Assembly (NCBI GenBank): GCA_024697625.1
Contig: JAILFJ010000085.1
Coordinates: 1-49,178, forward strand
From: Oscillospiraceae bacterium
Lineage (GTDB): Bacteria > Bacillota > Clostridia > Oscillospirales > Oscillospiraceae
Direction: 5' to 3'
DNA: 49,178 bases
How positions within the stretch are numbered: the stretch's first letter is position 1; every line of letters begins with the position of its first letter. Under the pieces are notes generated by a model, which worked only from the letters and a program-made list of their open reading frames with translations, ran no database searches and was not told the DNA's origin. The position numbers and the translations under genes were made by a program. Shown one piece after another: positions 16,603 to 26,449 of this stretch.

Positions 16603-18318
16603 TTATGGATGGACAACCTGGAAATCCTCCACGTACTGGCGGAACCAGAAGATGTTGGGCTGGCTGCAGTCGGCAATCGTACCGACAGCGACAAGATCGA
16701 CAGGCTGTTCCAGATTGACGATGACTTTGACGGTTCCGAATTCAGGATAGTCAAAGGAACCAACGGGTATCCAGTCTGTGCCGTCATTGATGTAGACGGT
16801 GCGAGGTCCGAGGATGGAGCACCAGAACGGTGTGTTCTCCTTGATGAGCTGGTAATCCAGTGTGAAGCCGACGCAGTTCTTTACCGTCTCAGAGAGCACA
16901 GAATAGTTCTGCTGCGAGTTCAGCCAGCTCTTCTTTGACCAGGTGATCTCGATGCCGTTCACTGTGTCGGTGTCGCTGAACTGTCTGTTGCCGATGTTGA
17001 CGACGCGGCCGGGAAATTCGTCTACCAGGAAACGGGTCTGAACCCACCCTGCGCGGAGCTGATTCTCAGAGGAACGGTAGAGAATGCAGGACATATCATT
17101 TTCTTCAGCGACTACAGTAACTCTTGTTCCCACATAGGCGAAAGGCTGCGGCTGGCGTCCGGTTCCCAGCTGTGAGATGCGTTCAACAGGCACGCAGGGA
17201 CCGCTGACGTACTTGACAGGACGGTTACAGGAATCAAGGGGAATCTCCATGATGTAGCGGGTCTTATACTCTGAAAGATAACTGCTCTCTTCCGGCATTA
17301 CAATATACTGCTGATCGCCGGTTGCCATAATCATCTCTTTTGCATTCGCGCGATTTGCGGCGGCTCTCTCCTCGGCTACGGCAGCTTTGGAGTCGTTCAG
17401 CATGGAGACGAGAGCCTCATCCTCAGGCTGTTCCTCGCCGATGAGATCGACGACCTTCTGGTAGTCCTGCACCTCAAAGGCCTCGGTGACTTCAGCGGCA
17501 AAGGCGGCTTTCGCAGCCTCGGCCGCGGCCTGCTCGATGGCGGCTTTGGAGTCGTTCAGCATGGAGACGAGAGCCTCATCCTCGGGCTGCCCGTCGCCGA
17601 TGAGATCGACGACCTTCTGGTAGTCCTGAGCCTCAAAGGCCTCGGTGACTTCGGCGGCAAAGGCGGCTTTCGCAGCCTCGGCTGCGGCCTGCTCGATGGC
17701 GGCCCTGGAGTCATTCAGCATGGAGACGAGAGCCTCATCTTCGGGCTGTTCCTCACCGATAAGATCGACGACCTTCTGATAGTCCTGCGCCTCAAAGGCT
17801 TCGGTGACTTCGGCGGCAAAGGCGGCTTTCGCAGCCTCGGCCGCGGCCTGCTCGATGGCGGCTTTGGAGTCGTTCAGCATGGAGACAAGAGCCTCATCCT
17901 CGGGCTGCCCGTCGCCGATGAGATCGACGACCTTCTGGTAGTCCTGAGCCTCAAAGGCCTCGGTGACTTCGGCGACAAAGGCGGCTTTCGCAGCCTCGGC
18001 CGCAGCTTTTTCAACAGCGGCTTTTGCGTCTGCAAGAAGAGCGGCAATCTCCTCGTCTTCTCCTAACTCGGAAGTCTCAATGAGTTCTATGGCTTTCTCA
18101 TAGTCCTCTGTATCAAATGCAAGGTGAATCCGGGCTTTTTCCATGAGCATCTGCATCTCCGGAGAGGGCTTCTTTACCACTTCGAGAGCGTCAACAACTG
18201 CCTGCCAATCTCCGTTTTCATAAGCGGTTTTGGCGATGGAAAGCTGTTTGGAGGCACACCCGGTGAGTAAAAGCAGCACCAGGATCAGACAGATCGGAAG
18301 CAGTATTCTCTTCTTCAT
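16603..18318 (-). CDS. Lipoprotein with four 53-residue tandem repeats and an SH3-like C-terminal region
   Basis: The 571-residue product begins with a lipobox LTGCAS (lipidated Cys21). About residues 25-95 are helical TPR-like (YENGDWQAVVDAL, AFDTEDYEKAIELI). Then come four 53-residue helical repeats, each with the core EAFEAQDYQKVVDLI and EDEALVSMLNDS, forming a charged Ala/Glu-rich rod. The C-terminal ~230 residues hold an SH3-like segment (YVGTRVTVVAEENDM, then RAGWVQTRFLVDEF) and a discoidin/jelly-roll-like end. It is probably a membrane-anchored, extracytoplasmic binding protein. The function is unknown; lipobox and repeats are direct observations. It is flanked by a convergent terminator and a divergent promoter. 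Confidence 0.85.
   Translation of the reverse strand: MKKRILLPICLILVLLLLTGCASKQLSIAKTAYENGDWQAVVDALEVVKKPSPEMQMLMEKARIHLAFDTEDYEKAIELIETSELGEDEEIAALLADAKAAVEKAAAEAAKAAFVAEVTEAFEAQDYQKVVDLIGDGQPEDEALVSMLNDSKAAIEQAAAEAAKAAFAAEVTEAFEAQDYQKVVDLIGEEQPEDEALVSMLNDSRAAIEQAAAEAAKAAFAAEVTEAFEAQDYQKVVDLIGDGQPEDEALVSMLNDSKAAIEQAAAEAAKAAFAAEVTEAFEVQDYQKVVDLIGEEQPEDEALVSMLNDSKAAVAEERAAANRANAKEMIMATGDQQYIVMPEESSYLSEYKTRYIMEIPLDSCNRPVKYVSGPCVPVERISQLGTGRQPQPFAYVGTRVTVVAEENDMSCILYRSSENQLRAGWVQTRFLVDEFPGRVVNIGNRQFSDTDTVNGIEITWSKKSWLNSQQNYSVLSETVKNCVGFTLDYQLIKENTPFWCSILGPRTVYINDGTDWIPVGSFDYPEFGTVKVIVNLEQPVDLVAVGTIADCSQPNIFWFRQYVEDFQVVHP
17381..18016 (-). repeat. Four tandem 159-bp in-frame repeats
   Basis: The same marker sequence recurs at 17391, 17550, 17709 and 17868, exactly 159 bp (53 codons) apart. 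From the N-terminal side the copies carry GDGQ, GEEQ, GDGQ, GEEQ at one site, an alternation suggesting that a two-copy block was duplicated. Confidence 0.9.
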
Positions 18319-18476: not shown

Positions 18477-19706
18477 ATGAAATCTTTAAGAAAATATCCA
18501 AAGCTTGAGATTACGAAAAAAGGGAGTCTCAGCGTTCAGAATGGGCATCCGTGGATCTATGAGGACGAGGTCCTGACAGGGCAGGAGGGACTGGAGAACG
18601 GATGTCTTGTAGATGCAGTGACGGAGAACGGACGATACCTCGGTACAGGGCTTCTCAGCCTGAGCAGCAGGATCCGTATAAGGATTCTTTCGCGCAATGC
18701 CAACGACCGGTTCGACGAGGCATTCTGGAAACGCCGTTTTACCTATGCCTGGCAATATCGGAAAACCGTGATGCCGGATGACCTGGAATGCTGCCGTGTT
18801 ATCTTCGGAGAAGCGGACGGGTGCCCCGGGCTGACCGTGGACCGTTATGCAGATCTGCTGTCCGTACAGTGCCTGTCTTTTGGAATGGAAAAGAGAAAGG
18901 ATCTCCTCTATCCGCTGCTTGTTGATGTGCTGCGCTCAGACGGACAGGAGATCCGCGGAATCTATGAGCGCAATGACAACATGCTCCGACGGAGGGAAGG
19001 GCTGGAAGTGCAGAAGGGATGGGCTACGCTCCCGGGCGAACCCCTACCGGATTCTGCCGTCCGCGAGATCACGGAAAATGGAATCCGCTATCTTGTGGAT
19101 GTTGAGAACGGACAGAAGACAGGCTTCTTTCTGGACCAGAAGTACAACCGTCTGGCAGTGTCGCGGATTGCTGCAGGGAAGAGGGTCCTGGACTGTTTTA
19201 CGCATACGGGCTCCTTTGCCCTGAACGCGGCAGCCGGCGGAGCCAGTCATGTTACCGCAGTGGACGTGTCCGAGGCAGCAATCAGCATGGCCAGGGAAAA
19301 TGCGGAGCGGAACGGACTCTCTGATCGGGTGGATTTCGTGACGGCTGATGTGTTTGAACTGCTTACGGCGCTCTGTGAGAGGGGAGGAGAGCCGTATGAC
19401 TTTATTATTCTGGATCCGCCGGCTTTTACAAAATCCAGAGAAACGGCAGCCAATGCGGAGCGGGGATATAAGGATATCAACTATCGCGCAATGAAGCTGC
19501 TGCCAAGAGGTGGTTACCTAGCCACAGCAAGCTGCAGTCATTTCATGCCTGCGGCGCAGTTTGAGAGGATGCTCCGGGCTGCGGCGGCCGATGCCGGGCG
19601 CAGTCTCAGGCAGATCGAAGTGCGGCAGCAGGCTCCGGATCACCCGATACTCTGGAATGTACCGGAGACGGATTATCTGAAATTCTATCTGCTTCAGGTG
19701 GTGTGA
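18477..19706 (+). CDS. Class I SAM-dependent rRNA (cytosine) methyltransferase, RlmI-like
   Basis: This 409-residue protein matches COG1092. An N-terminal PUA-like domain (residues 1-75, including NGHPWIYEDEV) binds RNA. Next comes an RlmI-specific linker (VDVENGQKTGFFLDQKYNR) and the Rossmann methyltransferase domain with VLDCFTHTGSFALNAA (SAM loop) and IILDPPAFTKS. The catalytic Cys is in ATASCSHFM (about residue 353). The E. coli member RlmI methylates C1962 of 23S rRNA; the same target is inferred here. ATG 18477 follows AAAGGAG. It is the first gene of a tight three-gene set. Confidence 0.88.
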   Translation: MKSLRKYPKLEITKKGSLSVQNGHPWIYEDEVLTGQEGLENGCLVDAVTENGRYLGTGLLSLSSRIRIRILSRNANDRFDEAFWKRRFTYAWQYRKTVMPDDLECCRVIFGEADGCPGLTVDRYADLLSVQCLSFGMEKRKDLLYPLLVDVLRSDGQEIRGIYERNDNMLRRREGLEVQKGWATLPGEPLPDSAVREITENGIRYLVDVENGQKTGFFLDQKYNRLAVSRIAAGKRVLDCFTHTGSFALNAAAGGASHVTAVDVSEAAISMARENAERNGLSDRVDFVTADVFELLTALCERGGEPYDFIILDPPAFTKSRETAANAERGYKDINYRAMKLLPRGGYLATASCSHFMPAAQFERMLRAAAADAGRSLRQIEVRQQAPDHPILWNVPETDYLKFYLLQVV

Positions 19707-19707
19707 A

Positions 19708-20547
19708 ATGAAACGGGCAGTATGTACCTTGCTGGCATTGCTGCTGGTTCTGACAAATGCAGTGCCGGTCTTTGCCGAGACCGAAGAAGTACGAAAAGTG
19801 CTCCGTGAGGAGGAGCTTCAGAAGCTTCTGGATACGTATATGCAGGAAAAGGACCTGGTTCCGGAACTGATTGCGGTGGGTTATGTCTATACCGAAACCG
19901 GAGAGAGCTGGTTCTGGAACGGCGATCAGCCCTTTTATTCTGCCAGCCTCTACAAGGTTCCGCTTATGATGCTCCTGGCAGAAGAAGAGGCTTCCGGAGT
20001 CTTGAACCAGACAAGTGAGATCTATGGAATGCCGCTCTCCTATATTGAGGAACAGGTGCTGGTCTATTCAGACAATCCGATAGCCTATGATATGCTCTGC
20101 CGGTTTGGAGAACCGTCCGAAACCAGAAGAATGTTTCAGCAATATGCTGAATTGCCAGAGGATTACTACAGCTGGGATTTTTACGGCTCCAGCTATTTTA
20201 CGGCTCGTTTTATGACGCAGGTGATGCAGACACTCTATGAATCTCCGGAGCGCTTTCCGCATGTCATGGAATGGCTGAAACAGGCCCAGCCCGGTCGTTT
20301 CTTTAAAACGGAACTGGAAAAAACCGGCTGTGAGATTGCGCAGAAATACGGCAACTATCATGACGACATGAGCGGCGCAGACTGGAACCATGCCAGCGGC
20401 ATAATCTTTACGGAACATCCATTTGTTCTTACTGTCATGACCCGATACGGAGGCCTGTCGGAGATGATTATCTCGGATCTGGCGGTGCTCTTTCGCGATT
20501 ATACCTTCCGGCTGGATGAGAGACTGGATAACGGAGATGTAGAATGA
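19708..20547 (+). CDS. Secreted class A beta-lactamase-fold serine hydrolase
   Basis: The 279-residue product has a signal peptide (about residues 1-23). The class A beta-lactamase/PBP fold is suggested by an S-x-x-K motif (SASLYKVP, about residue 90), an SDN motif (YSDNPIAYDM) and a later K-x-G motif (KYGNYHDD), plus FTEHPFVLTVMTRY. The Glu166 region (ExxLN) seen in true beta-lactamases was not found, so hydrolysis of antibiotics is doubtful; a peptidoglycan-related or esterase role is more likely. It starts 1 nt after the methyltransferase stop and ends with a 4-bp overlap into the next gene. Confidence 0.75.
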   Translation: MKRAVCTLLALLLVLTNAVPVFAETEEVRKVLREEELQKLLDTYMQEKDLVPELIAVGYVYTETGESWFWNGDQPFYSASLYKVPLMMLLAEEEASGVLNQTSEIYGMPLSYIEEQVLVYSDNPIAYDMLCRFGEPSETRRMFQQYAELPEDYYSWDFYGSSYFTARFMTQVMQTLYESPERFPHVMEWLKQAQPGRFFKTELEKTGCEIAQKYGNYHDDMSGADWNHASGIIFTEHPFVLTVMTRYGGLSEMIISDLAVLFRDYTFRLDERLDNGDVE

Positions 20548-21359
20548 AAAAACTGCTGTATCGAATCATTATAACGGTTCTTCTCATAAGCATGAGCTTT
20601 GGGCTGAGCGGCTGCGGGAGAAGCGTCAACTATGGCGTGAAAGCCGTGCAGACCCTGGTGGAACAGGAATACTCTCTTGCATTCCGAAAGGATGACCCGA
20701 CTGCGTATTACGTCATCGGAGCGATTCAGGCCCTGGATGAATCAGGAAAGCTGGACGAGCTTGCGGTCAAATGGTTTGGACAGAGGATCATTTCGTTCCC
20801 AAAGGTGAATTTTCGGCTGGAAGAGCTTGTACCGACTGAATACCGTGATTTTATTATCGGCCTGGATATCAATTCGTTCCCGCTGTCGTATGCGGCAAAT
20901 GGGGAATACTGGGGATTTGATGTTGAATTTGCGGTTGCGGTCTGCGAGAAGCTGGGATGGCACATTAAAATGCAGCCGATTGAAAAAGAAAATGTCTATA
21001 TTGAGCTTTCCTCCGGAAACATCGACTGTGCCTGGGGAGGGATTGCCCTGGATCCCGATGAGGTTGACCGACGGATTTATTCCCGGTATGGACCGTACGT
21101 GGAGAATGACATCGTTGTCGGCGTACGATCAAACAGCTATACGATGAATCCTCTGATGCTGAACGGAAAGAAAATGGTTATGCCATCCACGCCGGAAGCG
21201 ATGGCGGCCCTGAACTCTGACCCGAAGTTGATCAAAAGACTTGGCCAGATCACAAGACTGGCAGGCGGTACAACCGAGTGTTTCTCTCAGCTCTATGCAG
21301 GAAAATGCGATGCAGTTCTGACGGACAGTACAGCCATCTACTACTTTAACAGCCATTGA
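20544..21359 (+). CDS. Solute-binding lipoprotein with apparent circular permutation of the SBP_bac_3 fold
   Basis: The 271-residue protein has a lipobox (LSGC, Cys24). Residues ~40-79 (EQEYSLAFRKDDP through LDELAVKWFG) match what is normally the C-terminal end of family-3 amino-acid-binding proteins. Residues ~103-271 then follow the canonical start (IIGLDINSFPLSYAANGEYWGFDVEFAVAV) through GKCDAVLTDSTAIYYF, normally mid to late, and the protein stops there. The order is therefore C-terminal segment first, main body second. No permease or ATPase is nearby. A ligand-binding role is inferred; the permuted order is a direct reading of the sequence against known family motifs. Confidence 0.8.
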   Translation: MKKLLYRIIITVLLISMSFGLSGCGRSVNYGVKAVQTLVEQEYSLAFRKDDPTAYYVIGAIQALDESGKLDELAVKWFGQRIISFPKVNFRLEELVPTEYRDFIIGLDINSFPLSYAANGEYWGFDVEFAVAVCEKLGWHIKMQPIEKENVYIELSSGNIDCAWGGIALDPDEVDRRIYSRYGPYVENDIVVGVRSNSYTMNPLMLNGKKMVMPSTPEAMAALNSDPKLIKRLGQITRLAGGTTECFSQLYAGKCDAVLTDSTAIYYFNSH

Positions 21360-21543: not shown

Positions 21544-21984
21544 GTGGCAATTGAAATCGACAGTATACAAGAGGGAAAAGTAACCGGGATCATGAATTTT
21601 GGTGCGTTTGTCGCGCTTCCGGGCGGTAAAAGCGGTCTGGTTCATATTTCTGAGATTGCGAATTCCTTTGTGAAGGACGTACACGACCATCTGCAGGTTG
21701 GACAGCAGGTGAGGGTGAAAGTTCTGGGCATCAACGAGCAGGGAAAGATTAACCTCTCGATCAAGCGTGTCGCAGAAGAGAAACCGGAACCGGAACAGCC
21801 TCCTGCACCGACGCCGCCCCCCGTACGGGAAACGGTGAGAGCGCCGGAGATCGGTGAAGTTGCACCGCCTACGACAGATCTGAGCTTTGAGGATAAACTG
21901 AAAAAGTTTATGCAGGCATCGGACAGCAAGAATGCAGATAAACGAAGAAATACCGAGCGGAAGCAGCATGCACGCAGAAAATAA
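21544..21984 (+). CDS. S1 RNA-binding domain protein (YabR/GSP13-like)
   Basis: Residues ~1-72 form one S1/OB domain (VTGIMNFGAFVALPGGKSGLVH, ISEIANSFVKDVHDH, LSIKR). The rest is a Pro-rich linker and a Lys/Arg-rich tail ending QHARRK, likely to bind nucleic acid. The family (YabR, YugI) contacts RNA and ribosomes. The start chosen is GTG 21544, with GGAG nine bases ahead, giving MAIEIDSIQEGKV as in homologues; a TTG at 21529 is also in frame. Total 146 residues. Confidence 0.85.
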   Translation: MAIEIDSIQEGKVTGIMNFGAFVALPGGKSGLVHISEIANSFVKDVHDHLQVGQQVRVKVLGINEQGKINLSIKRVAEEKPEPEQPPAPTPPPVRETVRAPEIGEVAPPTTDLSFEDKLKKFMQASDSKNADKRRNTERKQHARRK

Positions 21985-22205: not shown

Positions 22206-23420
22206 TCAGCCGTAGCTGGCATACCAGTTTGAATAGTCCACACCCTGGCTGGAGGCCTCGTAGGTTCCGGTGAGTTTGCTGATCACTCTCAGGTAATCTT
22301 CCGACCCGACTTCATAGGGGGTCGGGCAGAAATCATTGTAGTTGTCCCAGGTGTAGCCTTCATAGACCGGCCGGCTGCTCACACAGCAGGGAATCACATT
22401 CCAGCTGTCCACCGAGACAGTTCCGTCCAGATCCCGCTTCAGGCTCACCTGGAAAATTGCGGTGTCGCGGTCTGTCGGAGCGGTATGGCCTCCGAAGCTG
22501 AACTCACCCATGCTGTAAAGAATAATCCCGCCGTTGTATTCTTCAATTGGCTGCAGACAGTGGGAATGGCATCCGAAAATCAGGTCCGCGCCTGCATCGA
22601 TGCAGGCATGGCCGATCTGGATCTGGGAGGCATTTGGCTGATAATAGAGCTCCTGCCCCCAATGGAATGCACAGATGATATAGTCTGCACCGTCCGCTTT
22701 CATCTGCTGTATTCCTGCTGCGGCTTTCTCAATATTCGGCTGAAAATCGTTATAGGCACAGTATACACCGATCTTAAGCCCGTGGTCGGTCGTGATGACC
22801 TGCGCCTGATTTTCTGTTCCGTATAGAACCCCATACTGCTCCAGAGAGGCATAGGTCTGAAGCAGGCCTGCCTGACCGAAATCGAGTGCATGATTATTGG
22901 CTGTCGTGACAAAGTCAACTCCGCCCTCAGTCAGAATCTGAGCGTTGGCTGAAGGAGCCCGGAAGTAGAAGGTCTGGGCGGAATACATCTGCGTATCGGA
23001 GAGCGTACATTCCAGATTTGTGATGGTAAACTCATCGTTTTTAAAATACTGTGCCGTGTTTTTGAAAGGATAGCTGTAGTCACCTTTCATCCGGCCTGCA
23101 TACGAGTATTCCGACTCGTCGCTGAGATTCTGATGTGTTGTGAGCGTCTCGTCGCCGATCACGGAGATGGTGAAGAACTCCGGTTCAGGCTCCGGAGTGG
23201 GAGTCGGCGTCGGTACCGGTGAGGGAGTCGGTGCAGGCTCGGCGGAGGAGACCGGCTGGACAGGGGCTGAAGGGGCGACAGACTCAGGGGCAACTGATTC
23301 CAACTTGCTGCCGTTCAAAGGCATGGGTTCTGCCTCAGGCTGCCGGATCCGCATGACCAGAACCACAGACAGAATAAGCATAAGAAGAATCAGAATGAGG
23401 GACTTTATCAGGTTTTTCAT
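22206..23420 (-). CDS. CapA-family membrane-anchored metallophosphatase-like protein
   Basis: The 404-residue protein has an N-terminal membrane anchor (residues 6-25), a Ser/Pro/Thr/Glu linker (to about residue 95) and a CapA (PGA_cap) domain outside the cell. The domain motifs ISVIGDETL, TNLECTL, TTANNHALDFGQ, HWGQE and FGCHSHCLQP contain the usual His/Asp/Asn metal-binding set. The family includes poly-gamma-glutamate capsule proteins, but no capB/capC genes are here, so a different envelope role is likely. It is the last gene of the MoxR cluster, 30 bp after the second LRR gene. Confidence 0.85.
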   Translation of the reverse strand: MKNLIKSLILILLMLILSVVLVMRIRQPEAEPMPLNGSKLESVAPESVAPSAPVQPVSSAEPAPTPSPVPTPTPTPEPEPEFFTISVIGDETLTTHQNLSDESEYSYAGRMKGDYSYPFKNTAQYFKNDEFTITNLECTLSDTQMYSAQTFYFRAPSANAQILTEGGVDFVTTANNHALDFGQAGLLQTYASLEQYGVLYGTENQAQVITTDHGLKIGVYCAYNDFQPNIEKAAAGIQQMKADGADYIICAFHWGQELYYQPNASQIQIGHACIDAGADLIFGCHSHCLQPIEEYNGGIILYSMGEFSFGGHTAPTDRDTAIFQVSLKRDLDGTVSVDSWNVIPCCVSSRPVYEGYTWDNYNDFCPTPYEVGSEDYLRVISKLTGTYEASSQGVDYSNWYASYG

Positions 23421-23450: not shown

Positions 23451-24731
23451 TCAGTAATAGAAACGGCTGTATTCTCTCGGATCATTCCCACGGTAGGCAT
23501 AGGCGCTGAAACCGCGGCCGTACTGAAATTCCTCGTACAGCTGAGCATAACGGGGAACAGCTTCCGGCGGATAGGCATCCGCCCGTTTCCTCCACTCCTC
23601 TGCGGTGGGATCTATTGTGGTCGTATTGACGACACAGTTGGGATGCAGACGTTTATATTCCTCAATCTGCTCTTTGGGAACCGGATCCAGACAGCCGATC
23701 CAGAGCCGATCGAGGTCGAGCCCGTACAGCGGCCGGATATCGCACAGCGCAAAATCATAGCAGATGTTGATATCCTTCAGCATTTTCAGATTGGCCAGAG
23801 GACTTAAATCCGATGCACCGGAGGTGGCAAATTCGAGATAGTTGAGTTTCGGGCAGGCTGCCAGCGGAGAGATATCTTTCACACCGCTCATGGAGATGAT
23901 CAGAACTTCGAGGTCCGGCATGTTCTTCACAAAGGAGATGTCATTCATCAGATCATTGTGGCCCAGATCCAGGTACTTTACTTTGGTACAGTAAAACAGA
24001 CCTTCGGTTGCATCTCCAACCAGATCTCCGCCCCGACCGGGATTGGATGCGAGAATCCGCTCCTCATCGGTCCTGACCGTATAGCCCGTTCCGAACCAGA
24101 TTCGCCAGACGACATCCACTCCCGGGAGACTGTCCCGGATGTGAGCCATGCTCTCATTGGATACCCCGCAGCTGTCCATATCCACCAGCCTGAGATTCGG
24201 CATGCAGGAGGCAATGTCGAGTGCCAGTGCGCCTTCATCCTGGAAGGTGATGTGGTTCAGGTTGAGAATCTCGTCGGTAATCTGAAAGGTATAGTAATTC
24301 TGGACGGTGACACTGTAGCTGAGCTGCGCCTGAGGCGCACCTTCCTCGAGGGCGCGTACCTGACTCCAGGAGATCCTCGGAGATTCTGCATTGGCGCTGC
24401 CCAGTTCCAGTGTCCTGAGCCCGGACAGAGCCGGAAGAACGGAGATGAGACGGTCCACCTCTTCAGGACTTGCCGAACTGAGATCCAGCGATTCTGTCCC
24501 GGGAGACAGAGACTGTCCGCCGACCTGAAAGCTCAGATCATAGGCGGGCGTCGGTTCCGGAGTCGGCTCCGGAGTCGGTTCCGGAGTCAACGTAACGGCT
24601 GGTGGTTCGGGATCTTTACCGGCAGAGGGCTTGCTGCAGCCACTGAGAAGTGTCATGGCAGACAACAGGATCAGAATATGGAAAACGCAAATTATTCTGC
24701 GCCGGAAAGAGTATGGATTCATCTTCATCAT
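23451..24731 (-). CDS. LRR lipoprotein (paralogue of the preceding gene)
   Basis: The 426-residue product has a lipobox (LLSGC, Cys32), a TPEPTPEPTP-type linker, then two ~70-residue LRR-like units beginning near YDLSFQVGG and APQAQLSYSVTV, and a shorter LRR section with YLDLGHNDLMNDISFVKNMPDLEVL. The C-terminus carries EEFQYGRGFSAYAYRGNDP. It is closely related along its length to the gene at 24728. The first 4 bp overlap that gene. The protein should be displayed outside the membrane; its partner is unknown. Confidence 0.85.
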   Translation of the reverse strand: MMKMNPYSFRRRIICVFHILILLSAMTLLSGCSKPSAGKDPEPPAVTLTPEPTPEPTPEPTPAYDLSFQVGGQSLSPGTESLDLSSASPEEVDRLISVLPALSGLRTLELGSANAESPRISWSQVRALEEGAPQAQLSYSVTVQNYYTFQITDEILNLNHITFQDEGALALDIASCMPNLRLVDMDSCGVSNESMAHIRDSLPGVDVVWRIWFGTGYTVRTDEERILASNPGRGGDLVGDATEGLFYCTKVKYLDLGHNDLMNDISFVKNMPDLEVLIISMSGVKDISPLAACPKLNYLEFATSGASDLSPLANLKMLKDINICYDFALCDIRPLYGLDLDRLWIGCLDPVPKEQIEEYKRLHPNCVVNTTTIDPTAEEWRKRADAYPPEAVPRYAQLYEEFQYGRGFSAYAYRGNDPREYSRFYY

Positions 24732-26449
24732 CCTTTGTACTTCGGGTCATTCTCTGCAAGAGAATAGGCGGCGTCGCCGAGATCGTACTGGAACTGCTCA
24801 CGCAGCAGCTGATAGCGTTCGTTCAGAGGATCGTTGAAGACCCCCGTCTCCATCCACTGGGCCCATACCCAGTCTGGACGCTCGCCGGTGGTACGCCACG
24901 AGCCCTGAGAGGGATCACCGTCTTCGGTGTTGATGACACAGTCCGGAGCGCATTGCTTCATATGCTCTATCTGCTCAGTGGGGATGGAGGGAGCTGTGAC
25001 AGAACCGATCCACAGACGCTGCAGATCTTTTAAACCGTAAAGAGGAGAGATGTCGGATACCCTGGGGCGCTTGAGATCGTCACCGGTATTGTCAATCATC
25101 TGGGCAGTACGGCCGATATTCAGATGACGCAGAGCCATGGAGTTGGAAAGGGGAGAAAGATCTGTGACGTTCGTGGAGTTGATCTCAAGATACTCCAGCT
25201 TCGGGCAGGAAGCAAGCGGAGTGATATCACTGAGATCGTTGATGGCAAGTATCAGGACTTCAAGATCCGGCATGCTTCGGACAAAGGAGATGTCGGTGAG
25301 CACCTCGTTGTGGCCTAAATCCAGGTATTTCACTTTCGTGCAGTACTGCAGCTTGGCGGCTTCCTGATTTGTGACCTTTCCTCCTTTCGCCGTGGAGGAG
25401 GCCAGAATGCGCTCGACATCCGTCCGCACACTGTAGTGTTCGGCAAACCAGATGCGCCAGATCACATCGACCTCCGGAAAGTCATTCCGGATGGCGGACA
25501 TGCTCTCATTTGTTACGCCGCAGAAATCCATGTCCAGAGTCTTCAGATTCTTCATGAACGGGAGAACGAAACGGACTGCGGCACCCTCATCATTCATGGC
25601 GATATGGTTGAGATCCAGCGTCTCTGCGTTGAGGTTAACCGGAATGCCAAACAGTCCGAATGTATAGTCCAGAACAGCATTCGGTGCAGCCTCATGGACG
25701 GCACTGATGTCATCCCAGCCGAGCGCGTTCATCTCAGTGCCAAGATGGATAAGCTGAAGCTGGTTCATACAGCGCAGAACTGAGCAGACCTCGGCGGTCT
25801 GAGAGGGAAGCATGGAAGAGAGGTCAAGCTCAGTCATGGTCAGCGGAATATCGTAACCGTAGATTGATACCGTATAGTTAATCGCTGCATTCGGGCAGGC
25901 GGCTGCGATGGCAGCGAGACCGTCGGCACTGATCGTGTTCCCGGACTGTGCGCTGCCGAGTTCAACGGTTTTCAGTGAAGGAAGGTATGACAGCAGTGCA
26001 GCAGAAGCTTCCGCGTCAGAGGGAGACATGGCAGAGAGATTCACCGATTCTGCCGAGCTATCCAGAATCTGCCCGTCAGGCAGCGTAACCGTATAGCGGA
26101 CAGCGATATCCGGGTGCTGCTCCGACCAGCTGTGAATCTCTTCATAGCAGGTGCTTCCCGAGAAGTCTGCCGACTGCAGGAAAGGGAAGCGGTCCAGAAG
26201 CTGCAGATCCTCGGGAGTGACTGCTGCCGCTAAATCGGAGATGTCTTCGGAATAGCTTCCGGAGCTCAGGGCGATATTCGGGGCCGCCGTGGGGAGAATC
26301 TCTTCTGTGCGGGAGTCACTCTGAGGCTCGTAGGAGGCAGAGCCAAGTGTCGTACCATGACGCATGGCCAGCGAATGGCAGCAGAGAATCAGGAAAACCA
26401 GAAAAGCCAGAAGGAAAATCTTTCTGAATATCTGAAGAATACTTCTCAT
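24728..26449 (-). CDS. Membrane-anchored LRR protein (longer paralogue)
   Basis: The 573-residue protein has an N-terminal hydrophobic anchor (residues 8-27, LILCC at its end is not a standard lipobox). Three ~70-residue units follow, each starting with HPDIAVRYTV-, CPNAAINYTV- or APNAVLDYTF-like sequence, then a cap FPEVDVIWRIWF and short SDS22-type LRRs (YLDLGHNEVLTDISFVRSMP onward). The C-terminal LREQFQYDLGDAAYSLAENDP resembles the end of the next protein. It lies between a small PH-like gene and its paralogue. A surface binding or scaffold role is inferred. Confidence 0.85.
   Translation of the reverse strand: MRSILQIFRKIFLLAFLVFLILCCHSLAMRHGTTLGSASYEPQSDSRTEEILPTAAPNIALSSGSYSEDISDLAAAVTPEDLQLLDRFPFLQSADFSGSTCYEEIHSWSEQHPDIAVRYTVTLPDGQILDSSAESVNLSAMSPSDAEASAALLSYLPSLKTVELGSAQSGNTISADGLAAIAAACPNAAINYTVSIYGYDIPLTMTELDLSSMLPSQTAEVCSVLRCMNQLQLIHLGTEMNALGWDDISAVHEAAPNAVLDYTFGLFGIPVNLNAETLDLNHIAMNDEGAAVRFVLPFMKNLKTLDMDFCGVTNESMSAIRNDFPEVDVIWRIWFAEHYSVRTDVERILASSTAKGGKVTNQEAAKLQYCTKVKYLDLGHNEVLTDISFVRSMPDLEVLILAINDLSDITPLASCPKLEYLEINSTNVTDLSPLSNSMALRHLNIGRTAQMIDNTGDDLKRPRVSDISPLYGLKDLQRLWIGSVTAPSIPTEQIEHMKQCAPDCVINTEDGDPSQGSWRTTGERPDWVWAQWMETGVFNDPLNERYQLLREQFQYDLGDAAYSLAENDPKYKG

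Follow-up and report, generated by a model that had tools for sequence, protein, structure and literature searches.

Most of the known natural circular permutations are ancient, and the steps that led to them have been lost. Among solute-binding proteins (SBPs), TpMglB-2 (Tp0684) is a permuted glucose-binding lipoprotein of the type I fold, classed as 'Type Ic / Cluster Bc', and the authors who described it suggest that anchoring might account for the permutation (excerpt of PMC4990184). The permutation-by-duplication model, as presented in an excerpt of PMC3320104, leads one to expect tandem forms. In addition, 137,020 domains of a structure database have permuted relatives according to CIRPIN (excerpt of PMC12667903); its main text uses none of the terms 'solute', 'periplasmic' and 'ABC transporter', and pairs of SBPs may therefore sit unremarked in such lists. 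Among the literature matches listed (open-licence PMC papers), there was no permuted family-3 SBP, nor any account of a repeated or recent origin of such proteins or of their tandem forms. Here we analyzed a 49,178-nucleotide stretch of DNA from an Oscillospiraceae bacterium (GCA_024697625.1, contig JAILFJ010000085.1, positions 1 to 49,178; the whole stretch is called the window), in which a gene at 20544..21359 (+) encodes a 271-residue lipoprotein of the SBP_bac_3 fold whose segments almost certainly stand in circularly permuted order.

The coordinates and translation of this open reading frame (ORF) agreed exactly with those in a preliminary description of the locus. The product has a signal-like stretch at its N-terminus (signal peptide, 20544..20615, +); the residues before Cys24, which we take to be a lipobox, precede a cysteine that is invariant in an alignment of 52 relatives and is the predicted lipid anchor. 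The standard SBP_bac_3 order places the segment from FRKxD to KWFG last, whereas it stands first in the window protein. Residues 30-80 (20631..20783, +) correspond to the displaced C-terminal part, i.e., a strand followed by helices and the KWFG motif, and residues 102-271 (20847..21356, +) correspond to the N-terminal three quarters of the classical protein. Between them, the model and the family alignment place a linker joining the old C- and N-termini at approximately residues 81-101 (20784..20846, +), in line with the ~80-102 that had been anticipated. The PF00497 score of the protein was 69 bits against a gathering cut-off of 26.4, with the best stretch at 104-239. As this Pfam profile comprises 132 positions and the C-terminal part of the classical protein lies outside it, the permutation cannot be tested with that profile.

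We therefore relied on other comparisons. In phmmer searches against PDB sequences, all four chains with printed alignments matched in two stretches of reversed order; in the best of the solved chains, 4ohn_A (E 1.2e-16), residues 102-262 of the window protein corresponded to chain residues 19-180 and residues 29-83 to 195-249. A profile built from 15 classical SBPs aligned residues 36-80 with columns 178-223 and residues 103-263 with columns 2-161. With the family alignment, hhalign placed residues 30-87 at columns 171-230 (E 3.3e-13, probability 97.9) and, with probability 100, residues 102-270 at columns 1-168. As the pieces meet end to end (168|171), the permutation is complete. The AlphaFold2 model had a predicted local distance difference test score (pLDDT) of 94.3, and DSSP assigned a strand at 32-48 and helices at 53-66 and 69-78; in this model the long strands 32-48 and 179-195 look like two hinge crossings. 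That is, the permutation with retention of the fold put forward in the preliminary description was borne out by sequence, by profile and by a high-confidence model. The profile comparison suggested there for the N-terminal segment was also run; it placed the segment at the classical C-terminal columns and gave no refutation.

Several observations weigh against this interpretation. Two of them would favor an artefact, which could be a decaying pseudogene, a tandem repeat that was mis-assembled or a match by chance: with the classical-SBP profile, the single sequence matched only weakly at its N-terminus (9.8 bits), and most genomes analyzed look like metagenome-assembled genomes. The second stretches in the phmmer PDB matches had i-Evalues from 0.31 to 390. 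Aligners that are sequential and not permutation-aware covered only ~50-271 or 98-271 of the AlphaFold2 model, and the Foldseek rows listed had TM-scores of 0.33-0.46 with root-mean-square deviations of 3.6-7.6. There was no full-length fold match among the fold-search matches listed, from which we draw no conclusion; the sequence and fold matches listed all belonged to type II amino-acid SBPs or to enzymes related to these. Against an artefact, residues 25-100 alone scored 13.6 bits, which none of 2000 shuffles reached (best 9.2). The shuffles and the profile comparison ruled out a chance match of the N-terminal segment, and mis-assembly was judged very unlikely, given the many genomes with a permuted gene. 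High-confidence predicted models, full-length matches in 93 of 101 genomes of the genus and a permuted gene that recurs in two genomes of another genus, in one of them at a locus collinear with that of a classical relative (described below), point the same way. An artefact is thus largely contradicted and hardly credible.

The segment order is conserved. A match to the window protein at E 1.5e-81 or better was found in 94 of the 101 genomes of the genus, and 93 of these matches span from query residue 13 or earlier to residue 269 or later; the remaining one (G068) starts at 58. As for the other genomes of the genus, three had no match at 1e-15 and four had weaker matches starting near residue 100. 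At the family level, 40 of 200 genomes matched at 1e-25, and profile reading of 38 matches gave 37 permuted proteins and one classical protein (G131). At the order level, 31 of 295 genomes matched at 1e-18, and in 15 the match began at residue 13 or earlier (own genome included). As a control, the profile was applied to two sets of genes from loci that were search matches and hence non-random: a 49-gene set contained 27 classical full-length proteins (four of them training genes again), 20 permuted and 2 tandem, and a 39-gene set contained 28 classical full-length, 10 permuted and 1 tandem, with earlier genes recurring among the permuted ones (9/20 and 3/10, respectively).

Next, we considered the amino-acid pocket, for which we assumed the positions Trp/Phe50, Thr/Ser70, Arg75 and Asp157 in GlnBP/LAO numbering. 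The LAO mutants D11A, Y14A, F52A, S70A, S72A, R77A and D161A appeared as entry titles among the fold matches. The window protein has Lys, Ala and Asp at the first three positions and retains only Asp157. In eight rows from the genus, the pocket Trp, Thr and Arg were lost, and Asp10- and Asp157-type residues were kept in all eight. Across 39 rows of the window family, Trp was present in 0, Thr in 1, Arg in 0 and Asp157 in 27, compared with 42, 42, 31 and 42 of 42 classical and tandem rows. The other permuted proteins, nearly all operon heads (21 rows, of which 19, including L091, have the common breakpoint and 2 a second one), had Trp in 21, Thr or Ser in 21, Arg in 17 and Asp157 in 21. These counts indicate that permutation alone leaves the pocket intact and that the window branch lost it separately. 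Judging from these residues, an ordinary L-amino acid is an unlikely ligand of the window protein, and ordinary amino-acid transport is likewise unlikely.

Permuted SBPs at the head of operons, some with an intact pocket, occurred in the family, in the order and in three further families of the class. At the order level, ten loci had a permuted head SBP (L192, L194-L201 and L205), with permease and ATPase genes in all. A class-level search gave 59 genomes with a match at 1e-45, and the 30 loci fetched from these contained eight permuted genes, seven of which came from three families that do not belong to the order; of these seven, L252 and L253 adjoined both permease and ATPase genes, L262-L264 a permease gene alone, and L250 and L251 neither. 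Classical heads nevertheless predominate: a separate set of 30 fetched loci had 21 classical, 8 permuted and 1 tandem.

Both orders also occurred within single genera. The clearest case was a genus represented by three genomes, in which G205 and G569 carried a permuted head gene and G270 a classical one. Residues 1-27, 24-92 and 104-285 of the G205 protein matched residues 6-32 (70%), 205-273 (80%) and 31-206 (85%) of the G270 protein, respectively. In the DNA, the upstream (72%) and downstream (82%) flanks were collinear, and the two gene parts were swapped at 81% identity each. A second genus was similarly split, with L250 and L251 permuted and L260 classical, and the DNA pieces of L250 and L260 were 79% and 73% identical. 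Furthermore, a second breakpoint, at columns 95|109, was found in the head SBPs L093:5288-6073 (+) and L100:5431-6354 (+), in which lobe 2 and the C-terminal part come first and the first part of lobe 1 comes last.

An alternative is a single ancient permutation that was disseminated by transfer, or by recombination where an operon contains a pair of SBP genes. The members of such a pair could swap parts, and all permuted genes read except two share one common breakpoint region, both of which would fit this explanation. However, a maximum-likelihood tree built from 89 sequences, all set in common order, required nine changes of the permuted label, eight of them forced by well-supported branches; for this tree, the window family was cut to nine rows, and six repeated loci were left out together with at most 15 near-duplicates. 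A single origin was recovered in 0 of 200 bootstrap trees, and holding the 32 permuted rows together cost 887 log-likelihood units (p-AU, the approximately unbiased test, 1.56e-25), with the test groups set by segment order after a first tree had been seen. A single origin was therefore rejected. An earlier quick tree of 102 rows, which left out identical rows, L106 and surplus same-genus loci, showed seven label changes, six of them forced. Some of the label changes may be reversals. Recombination with the trailing permuted SBP as the source of the permuted G205 head was also unsupported by the segment identities; this head shares only 25% identity with that trailing SBP of its own operon, against 80-85% between its pieces and the classical G270 gene. 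One ancient permutation is thus very improbable, and the relatives suggest that rotations of this kind arose more than once in Clostridia, some of them between sister species.

Tandem forms were present. A 558-residue SBP-SBP protein has domains that are 86% identical; in its genus, the five other matching genomes had one-domain proteins, and one of the seven genomes lacked a match at 1e-60. A 785-residue SBP-SBP-permease fusion (L203:460-2817, -), with SBP domains 91% identical, occurred in another family of the order. In addition, several permuted proteins have a linker that starts with the tail found in classical relatives, as the fusion of tandem copies predicts. No one-and-a-half-copy form was seen among the genes read. 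Permutation may thus have proceeded by tandem duplication of the SBP domain, after which the front of the first copy and the end of the second copy would have been trimmed.

Directly upstream of the window gene lies a Beta-lactamase2 gene (PF13354, 63 bits against a cut-off of 22; 19708..20547, +), the end of which overlaps the SBP start by four bases (ATGA, 20544-20547). Gene neighborhoods in the genus were counted by phmmer on all ORFs in the best 80 of 206 confirmed loci (3.2 to 12.8 kb each). The directly upstream gene encoded a beta-lactamase-fold protein in 56 loci, an M18 aminopeptidase in 18 and another protein in five; one locus ended with the contig. Among 61 relatives of the hydrolase, we examined Ser-x-x-Lys, Ser-x-Asn and Lys-Tyr/Phe-Gly, which we take to be the serine-hydrolase motifs: Ser and Lys of the first were each kept in 53, Ser and Asn of the second in 59 and 58, and Lys and Gly of the third in 57 and 61. 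As the motifs are largely kept, the neighbor is probably an active serine hydrolase. It could be postulated that the window protein is a partner or regulator of this hydrolase, its cleft serving for protein or peptide contact, and the frequent adjacency, the gene overlap and the retained motifs agree with such a role. Meanwhile, the M18 aminopeptidase takes the hydrolase position in 18 of 80 loci, and two loci of the genus (L024 and L025) have permease, ATPase and racemase-like genes beside the permuted SBP; we therefore consider a hydrolase partner unlikely. The coupling to a beta-lactamase-fold protein noted in the preliminary description is common in the genus but, given the M18 loci and the ABC genes in other genera, does not define the family. 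C-type lectin domain proteins were also encoded near permuted SBPs in genus loci (L026:2947-4665, with an additional kinase-like part, L043:4436-6010 and others; cluster c14).

The same description had called the binding protein solitary and without a permease. This holds for the window, in which no permease or ATPase of the amino-acid ATP-binding cassette (ABC) type was found, and no amino-acid ABC permease occurred in the 80 genus loci; it does not hold for the history of the family. A sample of 37 loci of relatives, also counted by phmmer on all ORFs, yielded 34 permuted non-head SBPs (L024 and L025 included, as well as L091, which retains Trp and Thr and groups with head SBPs in the 102-row tree). 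Upstream of 22 of them lay amino-acid ABC permease and ATPase genes, in nine cases together with a histidine-racemase-like gene. Counting against an importer ancestry, 12 of the 34 loci had no ABC genes within 4.5 kb upstream, although less sequence was available for three of them. The racemase-like gene in these operons (L024:7159-7920, L082:7029-7844, L072:980-1762 and others) hints at D-amino-acid metabolism linked to these transporters. One such protein matched a solved histidine racemase at E 1.4e-22 and diaminopimelate epimerase entries at 3.4e-21.

The window protein might still be a transport SBP that delivers an amino acid or a related compound in trans to the amino-acid ABC transporter of its genome, where a classical SBP is followed by permease and ATPase genes (contig C8, L003). 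This transporter, the ABC operons of the relatives and the retention of Asp10- and Asp157-type residues are compatible with such delivery. The loss of the pocket Trp, Thr and Arg in the genus and the lack of an amino-acid permease in the window and the 80 loci are not, and we regard transport in trans as improbable. Elsewhere in the same genome (contig C172, L002:2-1525, +), a 507-residue frame combines a binding protein of the TRAP type (tripartite ATP-independent periplasmic; DctP-like by eye) with a classical family-3 SBP that appears by eye very similar to the L003 SBP, and a recent fusion or an assembly join is possible.

Taken together, the best explanation is that the window protein is a permuted type II binding lipoprotein that arose by duplication, formerly served an importer and now acts as a surface receptor; as a whole we consider this probable. 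Its origin from an SBP of an amino-acid ABC transporter is the firmer part and very probable. The permuted SBP would have been kept as the second, trailing SBP of an operon ordered as SBP, permease, ATPase, in some cases a histidine-racemase-like gene, and permuted SBP, and would then have been separated from the transporter genes in most of the window genus. The protein would now be a membrane-tethered, two-lobed receptor anchored through lobe 2, with a ligand other than an ordinary L-amino acid, and at the cell surface it may have a sensing or an accessory binding role, alongside an exported serine hydrolase in many species. This receptor function is tentative, and the advantage of anchoring through lobe 2 is a guess, which tells against the explanation. 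The earlier proposal of a sensing or cell-wall-ligand role instead of transport is plausible in that the pocket is lost; nothing pointed to a cell-wall ligand. More broadly, we lean towards the view that tethered amino-acid binding proteins of Clostridia have changed between classical and permuted order many times and recently, that these changes take place at the native operon locus, via tandem intermediates and with at least two breakpoints, that selection acts on the transfer of the lipid anchor to lobe 2 from its old place on lobe 1, and that the window family is an old branch which abandoned amino-acid binding and became a receptor of a new kind.

Other features of the window were as follows. 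A SAM (S-adenosylmethionine) methyltransferase with a PUA-like domain is encoded at 18477..19706 (+), immediately upstream of the hydrolase gene, and an S1 RNA-binding domain protein downstream of the SBP gene at 21544..21984 (+), both by profile match. By eye, the ORF at 16603-18318 (-) encodes a lipoprotein-like, Ala/Glu-rich product of 571 residues with four near-identical repeats of ~53 residues. Two adjacent, similar exported proteins of 426 and 573 residues, leucine-rich-repeat-like by eye, are encoded by ORFs that overlap by four bases (23451-26449, -), and a CapA-like ORF (by eye) at 22206-23420 adjoins them.

The co-occurrence of classical, tandem and permuted forms in one class, some in one genus and one at a collinear locus, makes the permutation-by-duplication model and the idea that tethering favors permutation directly testable, and is of high interest for protein evolution. 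Rearranged transport proteins of this sort go unnoticed with a domain model that ends before the C-terminal part, the current SBP_bac_3 profile being one example. The racemase-like neighbors (cluster c8) resemble the histidine racemases CntK/HisR in model scores and in the match to a solved structure; their 95-137 bits against NF033599 and NF052224 fall below the curated cut-offs of 300 and 400. Tandem-SBP transporters of the GlnPQ type (6h30) resemble the proteins of L203 and L218 in having two SBP domains in one chain, whereas the permuted proteins have one complete domain in rotated order. TpMglB-2 is likewise a natural circular permutation of a tethered binding lipoprotein; in contrast to the window protein, it has a type I sugar-binding fold and its permutation needs a fourth hinge crossing, and the excerpt of PMC4990184 describes no repeated origins. 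The window protein resembles family 3 SBPs (PF00497; type II, GlnBP/LAO/HisJ-like) in fold, sequence family and the ABC-operon setting of its relatives, and differs from them in its permuted order, in the new termini, which would lie in lobe 2, in the lost pocket residues and in having no permease beside it. A permuted SBP was thus already known in kind from the type I fold of TpMglB-2, and the SBP_bac_3 case would be the new part.
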